A stretch of DNA of 51,106 nt from a virus. Of the stretch, positions 3,080 to 25,135 are shown piece by piece (positions within the stretch are counted from its first letter, which is position 1; the number at the start of each line of letters is the position of its first letter). The notes under the pieces are model-generated. The model ran no database searches. It worked only from the letters and a program-made list of their open reading frames with translations, and was not told the DNA's origin. Position numbers and translations under genes: made by a program. The DNA lies in IMG/VR virus record IMGVR_UViG_3300027878_000179, positions 1 through 51,106 of that record. One strand, written 5' to 3'.

Positions 3080-3156
3080 TGGTGCGCCCGACGGGACTCG
3101 AACCCGTGCCGTCCCGATTTGAAGTCGGGAGCTTCCACCAACTGAGCTACAGGCGC
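3080..3156 (-). tRNA. tRNA with anticodon UCA (UGA-decoding, class I)
   Basis: On the minus strand a full cloverleaf can be drawn: acceptor GCGCCTG/CGGGCGC (one G-U), D arm GCTC...AAGC (C13-A22 mismatch), anticodon stem CCCGA/TCGGG, seven-base loop CTTCAAA, variable loop ACGGC, T arm ACGGG-TTCGAGT-CCCGT, discriminator A and an encoded CCA, 77 nt in all. U33 is present, and bases 34-36 are TCA (plus-strand 3120-3122), so the tRNA should read UGA. The loop CUUCAAA is the same as in E. coli tRNA-Sec. However, the short variable loop and 7-bp acceptor are not those of bacterial tRNA-Sec, so an opal suppressor-type tRNA is more likely. The charged amino acid cannot be read from the sequence. Confidence 0.9.
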
Positions 3157-9335: not shown

Positions 9336-11465
9336 ATGAACGATCTCGGCCTCGACGAAAAGGCGAAAGACCTCGTCTTTGGCAACGCGACGATCATCAA
9401 GGCCCGCGTCTACGGTCCCGAAGGCGCAGCGCCGCCGAACGTCACCTCGCTGCCCGAAGAGGGGCAAGGGGCCTTCACCGCCGCGGGGGCGATCGTCCCC
9501 CCTTACGATCCCGGCACCCTCTGCCTGATCGCCGAGAACTCGCAGCCGTTGCGCCCGAACGTCGATGCCTACTCGACGAACATCGAGTCGTTCGGGTACA
9601 GGCTGGAGCCCGTCGTCAACCTGACCTCCGTCGAGGCGGATCAGCAGATCGAGGATCAGATCCTCCTCGAACGGATGTACGACAACCCGCACGCGGCCGA
9701 GATCGAGGTCACGCCCGAAGAGGTGCAAGAGCGGCGGGTGCTCATCCAGCGCGAGGCGCGGATCGAGCGGCTCCAGGTCGAGATCTTCTTCAAGCATTGC
9801 GTGACCGACGGCGGCTCGTTTATCGAGCTGCGGGAGAAGACCCGGCAGGATCTGGAGATCACCGGCAACGGCTACTGGGAGGTGATCCGGAACGGGCTCG
9901 GGCAGATCACGCAGCTCGGCTACGTGCCGTCGCTGACCTGCCGGCTGCTGCGCGCGGACAAGAACTACATCCGCGTCCCCACGAAGCAGAAGATCAGCGC
10001 GCTCTCCTACCGAGAGGTCGACGTTCAGCGAAAATTCAGGCGTTTCGTGCAGGTTCTGTACGGCGTCGAGAAGTGCTTCTTCAAGGAATTTGGCGACCCG
10101 CGCGTCGTCAGCGCCGGCACCGGCAAGCCGTACGAAACGTATGAGGCGTTCCGATACGCCGAGGGCCCGAGCGCCCTTGAGGCGACCGAGCTGATCCACT
10201 TCAGGATCTTCTCGCCGCGCTCGGCGTACGGGATCCCGCGCTGGATCGGCGCGCTGCTCGCGGTGCTCGGGTCGCGCGCGAGCGAAGAGGTCAACTACCT
10301 CTACTTCGACAATAAGGGCGTGCCCCCTCTGGCGATCACCGTGAGCGGTGGCGTTCTCGCCAAGGATGCGGTCGACCGCGTGCAGAAGTACGTCGACACG
10401 CAGATCAAGGGCCGCGAGAACTTCCACAGCATCCTGCTTTTGGAGGCCGAGGCCACCGGGACCGGGACGAGCGGCAAGGTCAAGATCGAGCTGAAGCCGC
10501 TCACCGACGCGCAGCAAAAAGACGCGCTGTTTCAGGAGTATTTCTCGAACGCGATCGAGTCGGTCGGCTGCGCGTTCCGGAACCCGCGCATCTTGCGCGG
10601 GCAGATGACCGACTTCAACAAAGCGACCGCTGAGGCTGCGCTGCAATACGCCGAGATGCAGGTGTTTCAGCCCGAGCGCGCGCGCTTCGACCACCTGATC
10701 AACACGCGGCTCTTCGCGGCGATGGAGGTGAAGCACTGGACCTTCACCTCCAACAGCCCGATCGCGCGCGACCCGGCGGTGCTCACCGAGATGCTCTCGA
10801 AGCTGCTCTCGGCCGACGTGTTGACGATCAACGAAGCGCGCGAACTCGCGAACGACATCTTCAATAAGCAGTACGCGATGCTCCCGCACTTCTGGGCTCG
10901 ACAGCCGATGAAGCTGACCATCGCCGGGCTCACGAGCGGCAAGCCCGACTTCACGCAGCCCGATCCCCCGCCCCCGGATCCGAACGCCGCGCCGGTGGAT
11001 GCGGGTGCCGAAGACACGGCCGCGCTCGGCGCCGCGCCCGAGATGCCTGCGCTGCCGGAAGCCTCCGACGAGGCCTCCGACGAGGCTGTCGGCCCCGCGG
11101 TCACGCCCGAAGGGGCCGCCTTGCCGGAGTCGCCGGAAGTCGAGCCGACAGAGGCGGCTGCCGACCCGATCATCGGCGAACTCGAGGAGGCTTCGGCGCG
11201 CGTGGACCAGGCCCTCGCCACCCTGCGGTCCGTGCTGGTCACCAACCCGGATCCCGAGGTGCATCAGCAGCTCGACCTGCTCTTCAGCGATCTGCGGCAG
11301 AGCATTCTGGAGGGGATGGCGACTCGGCAGGCGCCCCCTGCTCTGCCCGAGCTGGGGTACCTCACCGCCGTTGCCAAGGTCGAGGAGCCCGGCGAGAACG
11401 GGGTTCTCCGGATCTATCTCCCGCCCGAGATCATGGCGAGCCTCGTGGAGCCCGAGGTCGAGTGA
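9336..11465 (+). CDS. phage portal protein (709 aa)
   Basis: The start is ATG 9336. The body (residues about 60-520) matches PBSX/XkdE-type portal proteins: FGYRLEPVVNLTS, the DLEITGNGYWEVIRN core strand, IHFRIFSPRSAYGIPRWIGA, YFDNKGVPPLAITVSGGVL, ENFHSILLLEAEATG and FRNPRILRGQMTDFNKATAE. The portal forms the dodecameric ring at the capsid vertex through which DNA enters and leaves. From about residue 540 a Pro/Ala/Glu-rich tail (PDPPPPDPNAAPVDAGAEDT) leads to a final helical segment (VDQALATLRSVLV); this extension makes it longer than usual. A terminase gene would normally lie upstream but is not in the window. Confidence 0.92.
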   Translation: MNDLGLDEKAKDLVFGNATIIKARVYGPEGAAPPNVTSLPEEGQGAFTAAGAIVPPYDPGTLCLIAENSQPLRPNVDAYSTNIESFGYRLEPVVNLTSVEADQQIEDQILLERMYDNPHAAEIEVTPEEVQERRVLIQREARIERLQVEIFFKHCVTDGGSFIELREKTRQDLEITGNGYWEVIRNGLGQITQLGYVPSLTCRLLRADKNYIRVPTKQKISALSYREVDVQRKFRRFVQVLYGVEKCFFKEFGDPRVVSAGTGKPYETYEAFRYAEGPSALEATELIHFRIFSPRSAYGIPRWIGALLAVLGSRASEEVNYLYFDNKGVPPLAITVSGGVLAKDAVDRVQKYVDTQIKGRENFHSILLLEAEATGTGTSGKVKIELKPLTDAQQKDALFQEYFSNAIESVGCAFRNPRILRGQMTDFNKATAEAALQYAEMQVFQPERARFDHLINTRLFAAMEVKHWTFTSNSPIARDPAVLTEMLSKLLSADVLTINEARELANDIFNKQYAMLPHFWARQPMKLTIAGLTSGKPDFTQPDPPPPDPNAAPVDAGAEDTAALGAAPEMPALPEASDEASDEAVGPAVTPEGAALPESPEVEPTEAAADPIIGELEEASARVDQALATLRSVLVTNPDPEVHQQLDLLFSDLRQSILEGMATRQAPPALPELGYLTAVAKVEEPGENGVLRIYLPPEIMASLVEPEVE

Positions 11466-11740
11466 AGCTGGTCTACATCGTCGACCGAACCTGCCACCGG
11501 AAGCTCGTCCCTGGCCAGGTGAAACGCCTTCTCCAGACCGGAGGACTGGTCGGCTACTGGGTCGCGTGTCCGGCGTGCACCAGGATTCGGCAGTACCCCG
11601 ATTCCGACGTGGGGTTCATCGAGACACCTGCTTCGCCGGGGGGACCTCGAACGATCCTTGGGACGAGGTCACCGCTGCGCTGCGAGGCGTGTGGGGTGCT
11701 GGTCCAAATCGGCGACGGCGAGATCTGCGCCGTCTCGTGA
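11462..11740 (+). CDS. zinc-ribbon-like protein (92 aa)
   Basis: The start is GTG 11462, with GTGA overlapping the portal stop. Two CxxC pairs, VACPACTRIRQYP and LRCEACGVLVQI, are about 40 residues apart, forming a likely four-Cys zinc ribbon. The N-terminus (KLVYIVDRTCHRKLVPGQVK) is basic. Small zinc-ribbon proteins are often found beside portal genes without a known role. Its TGA stop (11738-11740) is also the TG-A of an extended -10 element for the next gene. Confidence 0.65.
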   Translation: MKLVYIVDRTCHRKLVPGQVKRLLQTGGLVGYWVACPACTRIRQYPDSDVGFIETPASPGGPRTILGTRSPLRCEACGVLVQIGDGEICAVS

Positions 11741-11802: not shown

Positions 11803-14800
11803 GTGCCCCAAAGTGTTCAGGCGGCGAAGCCGGGTGGCTGGTCCCACGACTACATCACCGCGCTGCCTGACAGCGCGTTCTTGCATGTTGACGGGGGGAA
11901 ACGGCAGTTTCCCGTCAAAGACGAGGATGGCGTCGCCTCCGTGTCACAGCTCCTCGCGGCGCTGGTGAGCTTGCACCTCTCCCCTCTTCCACAGAAAGCC
12001 GATCTGCGGCGCAAGGCGTTGGGGATGCTCAGCGCGGCGCGGAAGGGCGGTAGCGAGCTGGCCAAGGGGGATGTGCCCGTGGTGCCGACCGTGAAGCACT
12101 GCGGCGATCCAGCGGCACACATTGGCGCATGTCCGACCGACGTCGGCAAGGGCGCCGAGACCACGAACCGAGAGCAGGCCACCATGAACGAGGCGGGAAC
12201 GAGCGGGATCGCGAAGGGAGACATGGGCGGCGGGGGCGGCGCCGGCGGGCAGCCCACCACGGGCGACCTCAGCGTCGGCGACCTCGGCAAATTCGGGGGG
12301 CTGAAGGGGCCGGAGCAGCCGGGGGCGCGCCGCAGTCACAGCGCTCTCGATGAAGTCCCGTTGGCGACGCAGCCCGGGCTCGTGACGGCGACGAAGCGGC
12401 TCAAGCACCTGGCCAAGTCCAAGGGCAAGCGCATCGCGAAGGCCTCGCCGCTCGACGAGGTCCCGGGCCTGGAGCCGAAGGCGATGCTGGCGAAGGCGGC
12501 GCCGGCGCCGAGCGCCGCCGGGGTGCTCCGGCTGAAGGCGCTCGCCAAGGCGGGTACGGCCGAATACACCCGGAAGGCGGCGACCGAGGAGCACACGATC
12601 GTCCTGACGACGGACGTCGACGGACTGCTCTGCGTGACCAAGGTGCTGAAGCTGTTGCAGCGCCTCGGGCAGATTGGCGCCAGCCGAGAACTCTTCGTCG
12701 AGGCCGACGTGCCCGGCGGCGTCTCGTCGATCTGTGGCTTCGACGGTGACGGCTCCTCGAAGCTCGTCGCCGTCACGATCGACGGCGTCGCCGTCACGGC
12801 GTCGCCGGACGACTACGTCGAGAAGCGGGGCCCGAAGAAGGGCGCCAAGTTCCGCCGCCGCGGCGTGAAGAAGGCGCTCTTCCGCAAGCAGCCGATCGAG
12901 GTGCAGGCGGTGCAGCTCGTCGCCCCGCAGGACGTCGTGACCATGGATGGCACGATGCACGGCGACACCGACGACTGGCTGATCGAGGGGGTCGCCGGCG
13001 AGAAGTACATCTGCGACGCCGCCATCTTTCAGCAGACGTACGAGCCCGCCGACGACGCCGCGCAGGCGCTCTGGGAGCAGGCCTACGGACAGAACCCGGT
13101 CGGCGGCCCGTCGGTGCTCGCGCCGAGCGCCCCGGTGCCGATGGCGCCCCCCGAGATGCCGCTCGCCGGCGGCGCCCCGATCAGCCGCGCCTGGCGCATC
13201 GCCAAGGCGCTCTCCGCGGCGATCGAGTACGGCGGGCCCCGGCGCACGCTCGATGCGGAGCCCGCGCTCCTGACGCACCCGTCGCTGACGCTGCCGCTGA
13301 CCGAGACGTACACCCCGAAGGACACCGGCGGCTGGCAGGGGGCGATCTCGCCGGCCGACGAGTCCTGGATCGGCTTCGTCGACGAAGATGGAGCCGGGCT
13401 TCTCTGGACCGAGCGCGAGCCCGGGTACGGAACCGAGCTGCGCGGCGGTGGCATTCTCGGGACGCCCGTCGCGTTCGAGCGCCCCGATCTCGCGATGGTT
13501 CCGGAAGACCCGAGCCGGCTCAACGGTCAGGGCACCAGCCCACTCGACGAGGCCTCGCGGACGCTCACGTCCGCCGCGTGCGCAGCCTCTTCTGCCGCGG
13601 CGCAGGTCCACGCGGAAACGGCGATCCCCGACGCGCGGTGGTTCGCGGCACAGCAGGCCGCGGTCGATGCTCACCGCGCCGCGCAGGCGAGCTACGCCAA
13701 CCAGGCCGAGGCGCTGCACACGTCGGGGCAGCCGGATCAGGCCGCCCGCCACGCCGGCGCGGCCGCCTACCATCAGCAGCAGGCCGACGCGCACGAGGCC
13801 ACCGCTGTCGCGCCGCCGCTGCCGTCGATCGCTCTCCTGGAGCCGGCGACGAAGGCCGGCTCCGGCGCGCGCGTGCACCTCGCCGTCGAGACGATCCCGA
13901 CGCCGATGAAGAAGGATGCCGCGGCCACCGCCGTGACGAACGCCGGCCCGCAGAACCAGGAAGGCGACGGCTTCAAGCGCGTCTCTTACCAGGGCATCCC
14001 GGTTGTGCTCGACCGCCCCAAGGGCTTCGTCATGACGGGGAAGAACGACGAGACCGGCGAGGACTGGTCGCGCACGTACACGTGCGACTACGGCTTCATC
14101 CCCGGCACGCAAGGCGGCGACGGCGATGGGCTCGACGTGTTCTACGGCGACACGCCCGATGCGAACGACGCCTACTGGATCCGGCAGATCAAGGCGGACG
14201 GGTCTTTCGACGAATTCAAGATCCTCTTCGGCTTCAAGGATGCCGCGACGGCGAAGGCCGTGTACCTCGCGCACGTGCCGGCGAAGTTCCTCGACTCGAT
14301 GTCGATCGTGCCGGTCGACATGGTCAAGGCGATCCTCGGGATCGACCCCGCGAATGGGATCGCGAAGGCCTTCATCAGCAGCATGAAGGCCGAGTCGGTG
14401 AGCCCGATCGGCGTCGCGTCGGTCAAGGCCTGGATCGCGCGGCGAGCGATCGACCAGACGGAGCCGGTCGGCGCCGCTCTCGTGAAGTCGCTGAACAAGA
14501 TCGCGAAGGCGCTCGAACCGAGCGACGGCATCTCGTCGATGATCGCGCGCGCGTACACCTCGTTCCTCTGCGACGCGTGGGACGGGGCCGGTGTGCTCGC
14601 GCACGAGCCCGTGGATTACGCGAACGCGACGAAGGTGATCGCCGCAAACGCGCAGGCGATGGCGCACATCCTGACGACGGTGTTCAACGTCGCCACGGTC
14701 AACGCGCCGAAGCGCACGATGACGCCGGAGGACTGGATGCAGCTCTTCGTCGAGAGCGTGCCGGCGCCCGTGCCCGCAGCGCCGAAGCGTCCCGAGCCCG

Positions 14801-15489
14801 AGCAGGCGCTCGGGCTCGGGAACCGCGTCCCTGAAGCGGATCACGCGCCGGATGGTCGACTGCGCGCGCTCGACGCGCCGATCGATCTATCGCCGACCTC
14901 GAAGTCGATCACGATTCAGGGGCACGATCTCGACGTCGGTAAGGCGGCGCAGATCGCCAAGTTCGTACACGGCTGCACCGGCCGTCCCTCGGCGCTGTTC
15001 GTCGACGGCATGCGCCTCGACTTCACGCCGATCGATGCTCAGCCTACGATCGCGCCACCGGCGGCACCGTCGCAGGTGCAGCGCATGCCCGCCAAGCTCA
15101 CGCCGCACATCATCGAAGTTCGGAAGGACAACTCGCCCGGCGAGCTTCGTTACGTGCTCGGAATCGTGCTGGAGCCCGACACGGTCGACGCGCAGGGCGA
15201 CACCTACGACGCGGAGTCCATTCGCAAAACGGCGTGGCTCTACATGGAGCATTTCCGCAACATCGGCCTGCAACACAAGGCTCTCGTGAACGGCATGGTG
15301 GTGCTCGTCGAGAGCTTCATCGCCCCGTGCAGCATGAACCTGAACGGCACCGTGATCCGCCAGGGGACGTGGCTGATGGGGCTGCACATCGTCGACGATG
15401 GGCTCTGGGAACAGGTCCAAGCCGGGCAGCTCACCGGCCTTTCTATCGCTGGTTTTGCAGAGCGTATTCCGCTATCGATGGCTGCTTAA
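11803..15489 (+). CDS. multidomain XkdF-type prohead protease fused to InPase domain (1228 aa)
   Basis: The start is GTG 11803, 9 nt after a GGAG box. The segments in order are: residues about 10-75, DUF6582-like (ALPDSAFLHVDGGKRQFPVK, LRRKALGMLSAA); about 262-332, a repeat-like domain (EEHTIVLTTDVDGLLCVTK); about 360-415, a PGDYG-like domain (KQPIEVQAVQLV, DDWLIEGVAGEKYICDAAIF); about 500-566, a WQGAI/LLWTEREP module shared with the 24242 gene; about 725-850, a phage InPase-like domain (GIPVVLDRPKG, YGFIPGTQGGDGDGLDVFYG, FDEFKILFGF); and about 1100-1228, an XkdF-type protease (LGIVLEPDTVDAQGDTYDAE, LQHKALVN, VESFIAPC, GTWLMGLHI, LTGLSIAGFAE). XkdF proteases process the prohead. InPase domains occur in phage polyvalent proteins thought to enter the host with the DNA. 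At 1228 residues this is many times longer than a stand-alone XkdF protein. Maturation cleavage may release the pieces. Confidence 0.85.
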   Translation: MPQSVQAAKPGGWSHDYITALPDSAFLHVDGGKRQFPVKDEDGVASVSQLLAALVSLHLSPLPQKADLRRKALGMLSAARKGGSELAKGDVPVVPTVKHCGDPAAHIGACPTDVGKGAETTNREQATMNEAGTSGIAKGDMGGGGGAGGQPTTGDLSVGDLGKFGGLKGPEQPGARRSHSALDEVPLATQPGLVTATKRLKHLAKSKGKRIAKASPLDEVPGLEPKAMLAKAAPAPSAAGVLRLKALAKAGTAEYTRKAATEEHTIVLTTDVDGLLCVTKVLKLLQRLGQIGASRELFVEADVPGGVSSICGFDGDGSSKLVAVTIDGVAVTASPDDYVEKRGPKKGAKFRRRGVKKALFRKQPIEVQAVQLVAPQDVVTMDGTMHGDTDDWLIEGVAGEKYICDAAIFQQTYEPADDAAQALWEQAYGQNPVGGPSVLAPSAPVPMAPPEMPLAGGAPISRAWRIAKALSAAIEYGGPRRTLDAEPALLTHPSLTLPLTETYTPKDTGGWQGAISPADESWIGFVDEDGAGLLWTEREPGYGTELRGGGILGTPVAFERPDLAMVPEDPSRLNGQGTSPLDEASRTLTSAACAASSAAAQVHAETAIPDARWFAAQQAAVDAHRAAQASYANQAEALHTSGQPDQAARHAGAAAYHQQQADAHEATAVAPPLPSIALLEPATKAGSGARVHLAVETIPTPMKKDAAATAVTNAGPQNQEGDGFKRVSYQGIPVVLDRPKGFVMTGKNDETGEDWSRTYTCDYGFIPGTQGGDGDGLDVFYGDTPDANDAYWIRQIKADGSFDEFKILFGFKDAATAKAVYLAHVPAKFLDSMSIVPVDMVKAILGIDPANGIAKAFISSMKAESVSPIGVASVKAWIARRAIDQTEPVGAALVKSLNKIAKALEPSDGISSMIARAYTSFLCDAWDGAGVLAHEPVDYANATKVIAANAQAMAHILTTVFNVATVNAPKRTMTPEDWMQLFVESVPAPVPAAPKRPEPEQALGLGNRVPEADHAPDGRLRALDAPIDLSPTSKSITIQGHDLDVGKAAQIAKFVHGCTGRPSALFVDGMRLDFTPIDAQPTIAPPAAPSQVQRMPAKLTPHIIEVRKDNSPGELRYVLGIVLEPDTVDAQGDTYDAESIRKTAWLYMEHFRNIGLQHKALVNGMVVLVESFIAPCSMNLNGTVIRQGTWLMGLHIVDDGLWEQVQAGQLTGLSIAGFAERIPLSMAA
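14790..14821. repeat. perfect 14-bp inverted repeat inside a CDS
   Basis: Arms 14790-14803 and 14808-14821 are exact reverse complements with loop AGGC. They lie in the linker of the 1228-aa gene that encodes about RPEPEQALGLGN. Confidence 0.85.
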
Positions 15490-17190: not shown

Positions 17191-18138
17191 GTGGCGAACA
17201 ACATGACCTACATGACCTTCATCGAGAAGGCGGATCTGAGCATCCATAACCTTACGAACGAGGGCGGTTTGCTCGTCCCCGAGCAGGCCCGGGAGTTCAT
17301 CGAGATCGCGATCGTGGAGAGCGTGTTGCTCAGCATGATCACGGTCAAGTCGATGAGCGGCCCGACCTTCGAGCTGTCGAAGATGGGCTTCACGGGGCGC
17401 GTGCTCCGTGGTGCGACCGAGAGCCAGGCCCTCGGCGTGGCGGACCGCTCGAAGCCCGAGCTGGGCAAGGTGCTGCTCCAGACCGTGGAGTTCATCGCCG
17501 AAGCCAGGATCCCCTACGGGGCGGTCGAGGACAACGTCGCTCAGGGCACGTTCGTCGACTACGCAACCAAGCTCCTCGCGCAGGCCGTGGCCCGCGACAT
17601 GGAAGACGTCGCCGTCAACGGCGACCTGACCTCGTCGGACGTCCTCTACAAAAAGATGGACGGATTCCTCAAGCAGATCACGACCCGCGTAATCAACGCC
17701 GGTGGCGTGAAGCTGACCAAGAGCGTGTTCGACACCATCGTGAAGACGATGCCCTCGCAGTTCTTCCGCGGCGCGAAGAACATGGCGATTTTCACCTCGA
17801 AGAACGCCGCGATCGACTACGGCTCTTCGGTCGCGAACCGCCAGACGCCCCTCGGCGACAACGCGCTCGTGAAGATGTCCTCCGGCGAGTACATGGGCAT
17901 CCCCGTCGTGGCGGTGCCGCTCTTCCCCGAGCAGCTCGGCGTAAACTTGAACGCGACCAACGTGGTCATGGGCGACCCGAAGAACATGGTCGTCGGGATC
18001 CAGCGAGAGATCCGGATCGAGACCGACAAGGATATCTCGGCGCGCGAGTACATCATCGTGGCCACGCTGCGTTTCGACGCGAAGTGGGCCCACGAGCCGG
18101 CCGTGGTCAAGGCCACCGGCGTTCTCGCGGCGGCGTAG
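17191..18138 (+). CDS. major capsid protein, HK97 fold (315 aa)
   Basis: The start is GTG 17191 with GGAAGAGAAG upstream. The sequence has the shape of XkdG/HK97-type capsid proteins: N-arm MTFIEKADLSIHNLTNEGG, the spine-helix region LLVPEQAREFIEIAIVESVL, P-domain strands (GFTGRVLRG, VEFIAEARIPYGAVEDNVAQ), KLLAQAVARDMEDVAVNGD, and the C-terminal FTSKNAAIDYGSSVANRQTP and EYMGIPVVAVPLFPE. It ends in REYIIVATLRFDAKWAHEPA. There is no long N-terminal delta domain, which fits the separate scaffold-like gene upstream. A hairpin 20 nt after the stop may stabilise this highly expressed mRNA. Confidence 0.88.
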   Translation: MANNMTYMTFIEKADLSIHNLTNEGGLLVPEQAREFIEIAIVESVLLSMITVKSMSGPTFELSKMGFTGRVLRGATESQALGVADRSKPELGKVLLQTVEFIAEARIPYGAVEDNVAQGTFVDYATKLLAQAVARDMEDVAVNGDLTSSDVLYKKMDGFLKQITTRVINAGGVKLTKSVFDTIVKTMPSQFFRGAKNMAIFTSKNAAIDYGSSVANRQTPLGDNALVKMSSGEYMGIPVVAVPLFPEQLGVNLNATNVVMGDPKNMVVGIQREIRIETDKDISAREYIIVATLRFDAKWAHEPAVVKATGVLAAA

Positions 18139-24241: not shown

Positions 24242-25135
24242 ATGAGCAAACGATTGCATGGTCCTGTCACGCTTCAGAAGATCAACCCCCCGGCGCTGAC
24301 CGGCGACGGGCTGAAAGAGCCTCTTCCGGGGCTCGTCGAGCGCTACGGCGACATGGACGGCACCAACGCCGCCGAGACCATGTTTAAGGTCTACTGGCAC
24401 GGCGAGCGGCACTACTTCGACTGCGCCGGCGGGCAGTGCATCGAGAGCCCCCACGGTACGATGGCCGGGTACAAGATCTCCGACGCCGACCTGGAGCGAA
24501 TCCGCTTCGACGGGAAGGGCGAGTCGAAGCACACCGAGACCAAGGCCAGCGACGGCGCCAAGCTGCTCGGCGTGACGATGGCGGACCCCGGCTTCCCCTC
24601 CTCGTGGAGGGAGGAGCAGCGGGGCCAGGGCGCCCGCTCGCTCGCTCGCTCGGCCACCCCCGGGCCGCCCCTCGTATTTCGGGGTGAGCACCCCGCGCTC
24701 TCGGTGCCGCTGACCCACAAGCTCGATCACGACCCCGGCTGGCAGGGGGCGATCGAACCCATCGATCAGTCCTGGATCGCCTTCATCGCCGACAACGGCG
24801 ATGGGCTCCTCTGGACCGAGCGCGAGCCGAGAGGCGGCGCGCCAGTCGGTGTGCCGTTCACGTTCAAGCGCCCCGACCTCGCGAAGTCGGATCCCCGCGC
24901 AGCCGCGGACGCCATCGGGGTGAAGGAAGTCGGCGGCAGCCTCGGCCTCGGCCTCGGGCTGAAGGTCGACGGCAAGGAGCTGGAGCCGATCCGGAAGTCG
25001 AACGCCCGTCGCGTGGTCGAGAGCTACACGGCGCCCGCGGACGAGACGCACGGCGGCGTGAAGATCCTGGCCGGCACGCATGTCGTCATGGTGATGAACG
25101 ACGAGCGCCCGCTCCCGCTGATGCAAGCTCGATAG
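24242..25135 (+). CDS. hypothetical protein sharing a module with the protease fusion (297 aa)
   Basis: The start is ATG 24242, 5 nt after a strong AAGGAGGT. The N-terminal 110 residues (HGPVTLQKINPPALTGDGLK, FKVYWHGERHYFDCAGGQCI, KISDADLERIRF) form an unknown domain. Residues about 140-220 (ALSVPLTHKLDHDPGWQGAI, SWIAFIADNGDGLLWTEREP, FTFKRPDLAK) closely match residues 500-566 of the 1228-aa protease fusion, down to identical DNA stretches of 18 and 20 nt. The C-terminus (THGGVKILAGTHVVMVMNDE) adds strands. A virion or injected-protein role is possible. Confidence 0.65.
   Translation: MSKRLHGPVTLQKINPPALTGDGLKEPLPGLVERYGDMDGTNAAETMFKVYWHGERHYFDCAGGQCIESPHGTMAGYKISDADLERIRFDGKGESKHTETKASDGAKLLGVTMADPGFPSSWREEQRGQGARSLARSATPGPPLVFRGEHPALSVPLTHKLDHDPGWQGAIEPIDQSWIAFIADNGDGLLWTEREPRGGAPVGVPFTFKRPDLAKSDPRAAADAIGVKEVGGSLGLGLGLKVDGKELEPIRKSNARRVVESYTAPADETHGGVKILAGTHVVMVMNDERPLPLMQAR

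Follow-up and report, generated by a model that had tools for sequence, protein, structure and literature searches.

Phage polyvalent proteins were described by Iyer et al. (2017; PMC5512222), who, pointing to a portal fusion, proposed packaging and injection of InPase domains and stated that assemblin-like peptidases, always C-terminal in polyvalent proteins, probably process them during assembly. The present study deals with P0001, a polyprotein encoded in the IMG/VR virus record IMGVR_UViG_3300027878_000179; the window is the whole stretch analysed, i.e. all 51,106 bases of the record, in which the tail genes come after a cluster of head genes. Like the proteins of Iyer et al., P0001 is multidomain, ends with a protease and contains InPase, which is among the domains listed in PMC5512222; the difference is that the main text does not use the name XkdF, borne by the protease of P0001. 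The protein joins two or more functionally distinct domains in one chain within a virion gene cluster, which is one mark of a polyvalent protein. We consider it rather probable that P0001 is a head-maturation protease which at the same time carries a polyvalent protein for delivery by the phage. An earlier note on this DNA, prepared from the sequence alone, had connected InPase with injected polyvalent proteins and suggested that the protease is packaged, cuts itself free and delivers effector domains; this interpretation, partly supported here, agrees with published proposals, and since the same idea has been put forward for both assemblin-like proteases and InPase (PMC5512222), it is not new in kind.

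Several further systems share some features with P0001. The portal–InPase fusions of Pa193 (gp19, PDB 9b41), where InPase is C-terminal, and BcepF1.124 likewise have a homologous InPase on a head protein, but their carrier is the portal and the chain has no self-cleaving partner; the Pa193 segment 529-765, which contains InPase, is without density in the mature virion (PMC11042391). The T4 anti-restriction proteins Ip1-3 are packaged in the head and injected with the DNA (PMC12373910), and DarA of P1 is believed to undergo proteolytic processing (PMC9024508); Ip1-3 and the Dar proteins are head-packaged anti-restriction proteins, yet they are separate chains with their own targeting, unfused to a protease. 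In SPN3US, ejection proteins are cut by the prohead protease (PMC10052503). The proteases of the XkdF/PBSX type have the same domain, the same catalytic H and S and the same portal, scaffold and capsid neighbours as P0001, although their short forms differ: the one from locus L018 (the prefix L numbers the viral loci compared here) counts 225 amino acids with the protease at about 117-216, and that of Lactococcus phage 50901 has the protease near 44-152 of 350; such forms leave hardly any space for an enzyme passenger or give no indication of one. What is new is the cargo set linked to XkdF together with a candidate cleavage motif. In the passages of PMC5512222 consulted, neither Tad3, Acb1, DNA ligase and UDG on this protease, nor InPase following the protease, nor the motif were found; a literature search covering few subscription papers yielded no account of XkdF proteases carrying Tad3, Acb1, ligase or UDG, no description of the motif and no Tad3 paper.

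Domains of P0001 and passengers of related proteases

The XkdF-type protease that the earlier note had placed at the C-terminus of the 1228-residue chain was recognized there by Pfam as Peptidase_S78_2 (E 4.3e-27; 95 bits versus a cut-off of 24), its catalytic residues being intact—H1158, E1170 and S1214 are invariant across 53 XkdF sequences, with the catalytic H and S conserved. The InPase domain (PF18823), claimed there as well, held in the profile search (E 3.9e-25; 88.7 bits versus a cut-off of 26.8), and both matches lie far outside chance expectation. Concerning the acidic metal-binding residues of InPase, D773, D775, D778 and D803/E804 have been kept, K806 being also present. Structure prediction by segment, suggested in the note as a check, yielded for the protease a model with a predicted local distance difference test score (pLDDT) of 77, whose top PDB match is the T4 prohead protease gp21 (Z 7.0, 103 amino acids), followed by an unrelated chain (Z 4.2) and the assemblin of human cytomegalovirus (Z 3.7). 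With Z scores that are moderate, the predicted fold is assemblin-like, i.e. the one common to T4 gp21 and herpes assemblin. The InPase model, a confident one (pLDDT above 90), finds matches among soluble pyrophosphatases (Z about 6.9, about 107 amino acids).

Three modules were absent from the earlier note: a Tad3-related domain (residues 862-969), a module at 492-564 and a hairpin at about 610-669. The direct Pfam scan for Tad3 in P0001 gave no match at E<=1. Residues 683-977 are, however, 42% identical to the counterpart in L027, and the Tad3 family of Pfam (PF25185, 'Type I Thoeris inhibitor') matches that L027 segment (E 2.5e-8), as well as L238 (E 5.8e-10) and L212 (E 1.4e-8). A profile built from these three, with the window left out, matches P0001 at E 8.6e-10 when run against all 278 open reading frames (ORFs) of the window, its 32.9 bits comparing with 13.1 bits for the best among 2000 shuffled segments. 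By this profile the segment is a Tad3 relative, which may block Thoeris to judge by the family name, and it is a divergent one, since the Pfam model itself fails to detect it.

Of two further labels given in the note, PGDYG is weakly supported and DUF6582 is not supported for P0001. For the PGDYG-like module proposed in the note, the Pfam match (PF14083; E 0.0075, 17 bits versus a cut-off of 27) stayed below threshold, while phrog_419 covers the same stretch at E 3e-11; residues 347-470 of this region are 45% identical to L027. The N-terminus, claimed there to be DUF6582-like, did not match PF20223 at E<=1 even when residues 1-110 were scanned alone; its LPDSxFL-type similarity to L028 amounts to 48% over 31 amino acids, and the first 116 residues matched nothing in the phage collection (E<=0.01). 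When scanned separately with Pfam, neither the 492-564 module nor the N-terminal stretch nor the 250-346 stretch hit a named family. The hairpin gave ferritin-like matches, which reflect a common arrangement and were left aside.

The linkage of the protease to effector domains, as put forward in the note, is real and recurs in many phages, with InPase, Dam, ligase, UDG, Tad3 and Acb1. The count of passengers covers 53 XkdF ORFs, all non-redundant and with 150 or more amino acids before the protease core, the window included; these counts rest on pattern-limited scans retaining the best 80 and are not population frequencies. According to Pfam, the ORFs contain D12 Dam (16), InPase (12) and ATP-dependent DNA ligase (7), and, more rarely, UDG (2), Tad3 (2) and the anti-CBASS protein Acb1 (1). 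DPPY, a motif typical of Dam enzymes, is present in 16 XkdF ORFs, and the Acb1 copy in L015 (E 2.8e-33) retains two HVT motifs. Long open frames containing conserved domains, of up to 1939 amino acids ahead of the protease, recur across a variety of phages and prophages; about 110-140 amino acids precede the protease core in the short relatives L018, L019 and L158.

The InPase alignment search yielded 80 viral loci, the nine nearest being 45-62% identical. Six of these nine (L027, L028, L030, L031, L033 and L035) have XkdF in the same ORF, one (L034) has a Mu-type protease, one (L032) has InPase and, downstream, the protease in separate nearby ORFs, and in L029 neither was seen. The protease-only searches added L109, L141, L202, L232, L233 and L240 as InPase–protease ORFs. 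InPase precedes the protease in L027, L028, L030, L031, L033, L109, L141, L202 and L232, the order being reversed in L035, L233 and L240. InPase also stands ahead of a protein annotated as the protease ClpP in Tenacibaculum phage Larrie. Given these fusions to XkdF, Mu-type and ClpP proteases and to the portal, InPase has repeatedly become attached to head-maturation machinery. The XkdF fusions as a whole are recurrent and look functional. Taken together, their passengers can be understood as proteins that act early, some protecting or repairing DNA (Dam, ligase, UDG) and others blocking nucleotide-signal immunity (Acb1, Tad3 and perhaps InPase).

The candidate cleavage motif

The linkers of P0001 are rich in IAKA and LAKA. 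Around the lysines of 47 non-redundant ORFs in the scaffold position, V, I or L is favoured at −2 (V 182 versus 79 expected) and A at +1 (241 versus 165), and the same residue preference was seen in 19 non-redundant passenger regions. The resulting pattern [VIL]xK[AS] was observed 140 times versus 43.8 expected in scaffolds (3.2x) and 55 times versus 19.6 in passengers (2.8x). As controls in the scaffolds, the mirror motif reached 1.3x and the R and E versions were near expectation; elsewhere the enrichment was 1.56x in portals and 1.49x in other window proteins.

Related capsid proteins nearly all have LxKAD near the N-terminus, with h-x-K in 64/66, and the N-terminal FIEK-ADLS of the window capsid protein fits the motif (K13, nucleotides 17227-17229). 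h-x-K also occurs just ahead of the protease core in 89/93 cases, and the isolated phages DLP5, VH2_2019 and Psxphi15 fit the motif in the capsid protein or scaffold. We infer from these patterns that XkdF proteases would cut after the lysine of [VIL]xK[AS], which is proposed as a candidate cleavage motif. Cleavage in HK97 likewise occurs after a lysine (K103). The shared motif ties the fused part of P0001 to the presumed capsid and scaffold substrates, as would be predicted if that part were packaged, cut free and delivered. Published N-terminal residues of an XkdF-processed capsid protein were sought in the KPP23 paper, which reports sequencing and prints none; a 1994 sequencing of phiH1 HP32 (Stolt et al.) is cited in PMC6210493, and the LxK-type site of phiCh1 gpE reads ITEK-NALTVDD.

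A possible avoidance of folded domains by the motif sites was considered and dropped, since it failed across the family (p 0.15); in P0001 alone, with a wider motif, it was no more than suggestive (p 0.09). One observation concerns annotation: the protein of Lactococcus phage 50901 (KX456208, L242 3372-4424) and phrog_1530 are annotated as 'DNA methyltransferase', and the L242 sequence looks like an XkdF protease with, behind it, a scaffold-like part that is rich in lysine and alanine and has 12 motif sites versus 1.3 expected, the label being probably wrong for both.

Proposed delivery with the genome and its alternatives

The proposed course of events would begin with the polyprotein, made late, entering the procapsid as maturation protease and taking its N-terminal domains along. 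The protease would then cut at [VIL]xK[AS] sites—the motif itself being present in all three—in the N-terminus of the capsid protein, in the scaffold and in its own linkers, and thereby free itself and its passengers. The InPase and Tad3-related pieces would remain in the head and reach the next host with the DNA. There, to go by the family names, both would counter nucleotide-signal immunity in the first moments of infection, the substrate of InPase being nucleotide-like or pyrophosphate and the target of the Tad3-related domain being signalling of the Thoeris type; in relatives, the same protease carries Dam methyltransferase, DNA ligase, UDG or Acb1. Whether XkdF proteases constitute, more broadly, a modular delivery platform, on which exchangeable, early-acting counter-defence and DNA-protection enzymes (Tad3, Acb1, InPase, Dam, DNA ligase, UDG) enter the procapsid, are released at [VIL]xK[AS] and injected, seems to us evenly balanced. 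If true, delivery would explain how tailed phages bring immune blockers into a cell ahead of all expression of their own genes. It would also offer a sequence rule for finding more such proteins, namely inspection of the domains preceding a head-maturation protease, and the candidate motif makes processing in a large, little-studied protease family directly testable.

Some observations weigh against delivery. The share of lysines that belong to motif sites is not significantly lower within Pfam domains (30/467) than outside (87/997; p 0.15), and the motif is therefore not a clean linker marker. The lysine before the P0001 protease is followed by D, not A (VRK-D), and the lysine preceding the protease core could be structural. 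The Tad3-related domain, besides being divergent, is without the GHSGMSA stretch of its relatives. Finally, propeptides cut by prohead proteases usually exit the head (PMC10052503), and the passengers could therefore be degraded or expelled.

This last point also speaks for the rather unlikely alternative that the N-terminal part is an assembly module only, i.e. a targeting or scaffold-like propeptide that is destroyed or expelled and whose enzyme-like domains are kept for binding, not for catalysis; the scatter of motif sites through passengers as through scaffolds would agree with it. The passengers are, however, many unrelated enzymes with retained active-site motifs, and no particular one is required for assembly, since L018, L019 and L158 have about 110-140 amino acids in that place. 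It is quite improbable that the passengers work late in the producing cell—methylating progeny DNA or clearing pyrophosphate—with the fusion serving dosage or expression rather than delivery. The P0001 gene does lie within a late head-gene cluster, and progeny DNA methylated by Dam ahead of packaging would already evade restriction, but the blockade of immune signalling by Acb1 and Tad3 is most useful early, and portals, which are virion components, also have this InPase family fused to them (PMC5512222). As for a neutral origin, in which the portal–protease interval would be a cargo-gene hot spot and fusions would form by read-through without selection, the interval is indeed variable, L032 having InPase and the protease as separate genes and DLP5 a ParB-like gene; long open frames (to 1939 amino acids) with conserved domains recurring in diverse phages and prophages, as well as the joining of InPase both before and after the protease, and to proteases of three types, make that explanation hardly credible. 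We retain delivery of the passengers by the protease as the preferred reading.

Gene neighbourhood and further observations

The features of the window are summarized in Table 1. The gene order is portal, CxxC protein, P0001, scaffold-position ORF and major capsid gene, and a small CxxC protein upstream of the protease was seen also in L012, L027, L028 and L033.

Table 1 Features of P0001 and neighbouring genes in the window
Feature	Position	Strand	Remarks
Portal gene	9336..11465	+	PBSX/HK97 type; immediately upstream
92-aa CxxC (zinc-ribbon-like) protein	11462-11740	+	between portal and protease genes
Polyprotein P0001 (protease with putative cargo)	11803..15489	+	GTG start, 1228 aa
N-terminal LPDSxFL module	11839..12042	+	residues about 13-80; resembles L028 N-terminus
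Candidate self-cleavage sites	12415..14943	+	after K205, K213, K231, K249, K357
Further candidate self-cleavage sites in P0001	12415..14943	+	after K468, K855, K895, K902, K1047
PGDYG-like stretch	12853..13041	+	residues 351-413; Pfam sub-threshold, phrog_419
Recurring module	13276..13494	+	residues 492-564; also ORF 24242-25135 and L034
Predicted helical hairpin	13630..13809	+	residues about 610-669; pLDDT 84-97
InPase domain	13975..14322	+	residues 725-840; Pfam, alignments, model
Tad3-related domain (divergent)	14386..14709	+	residues 862-969; profile of relatives
XkdF (S78_2) maturation protease	15139..15468	+	residues 1113-1222; H1158, S1214, E1170
Scaffold-position ORF, 511 aa	15611..17146	+	7 motif sites vs 3.5 expected
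Major capsid protein	17191..18138	+	phrog_1623 E 6e-82
Second gene with 492-564 module	24242..25135	+	E 2e-20; then protease-like stretch

The copy of the 492-564 module in the ORF 24242-25135 is 53% identical over 73 amino acids; the module is followed there by VVESYTAPAD...GT, VVESYTAPADETHGGVKILAGTHVVMV, which resembles a fragment of the XkdF protease, the match being weak (20 bits). This ORF, distant from the head cluster, may be a degenerate copy of the gene for the polyprotein. The same module occurs in L034 (5776-9594), where a single chain of 1272 amino acids consists of InPase, the module, DUF6582 and a Mu-type protease.

The whole-protein pattern search for P0001 in viral contigs found no relatives, the alignment searches with the protease and InPase having succeeded, and among known-phage proteins none reaches 80% coverage of the chain. 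PADLOC run on P0001 and three relatives gave no match. The window proteins match, among others, tail sheath, tape measure and baseplate families, and the phage is therefore probably contractile-tailed; the bacterial matches to the XkdF fusions are mostly Myxococcota prophages, a hint as to which group the phage infects, and include a Dam–XkdF fusion in a prophage of Corallococcus carmarthensis (L132).

Among the relatives, one XkdF ORF also matches the N-terminal domain of biotin carboxylase (E 2.7e-41), an odd partner. In Stenotrophomonas phage DLP5 (L243 1491-2831), a gene for a ParB-like nuclease lies between the portal and the XkdF protease, i.e. in the slot where relatives have fused passengers. 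In the window itself, ARAGORN predicted a tRNA-SeC (anticodon tca) at 3080-3156 on the minus strand.

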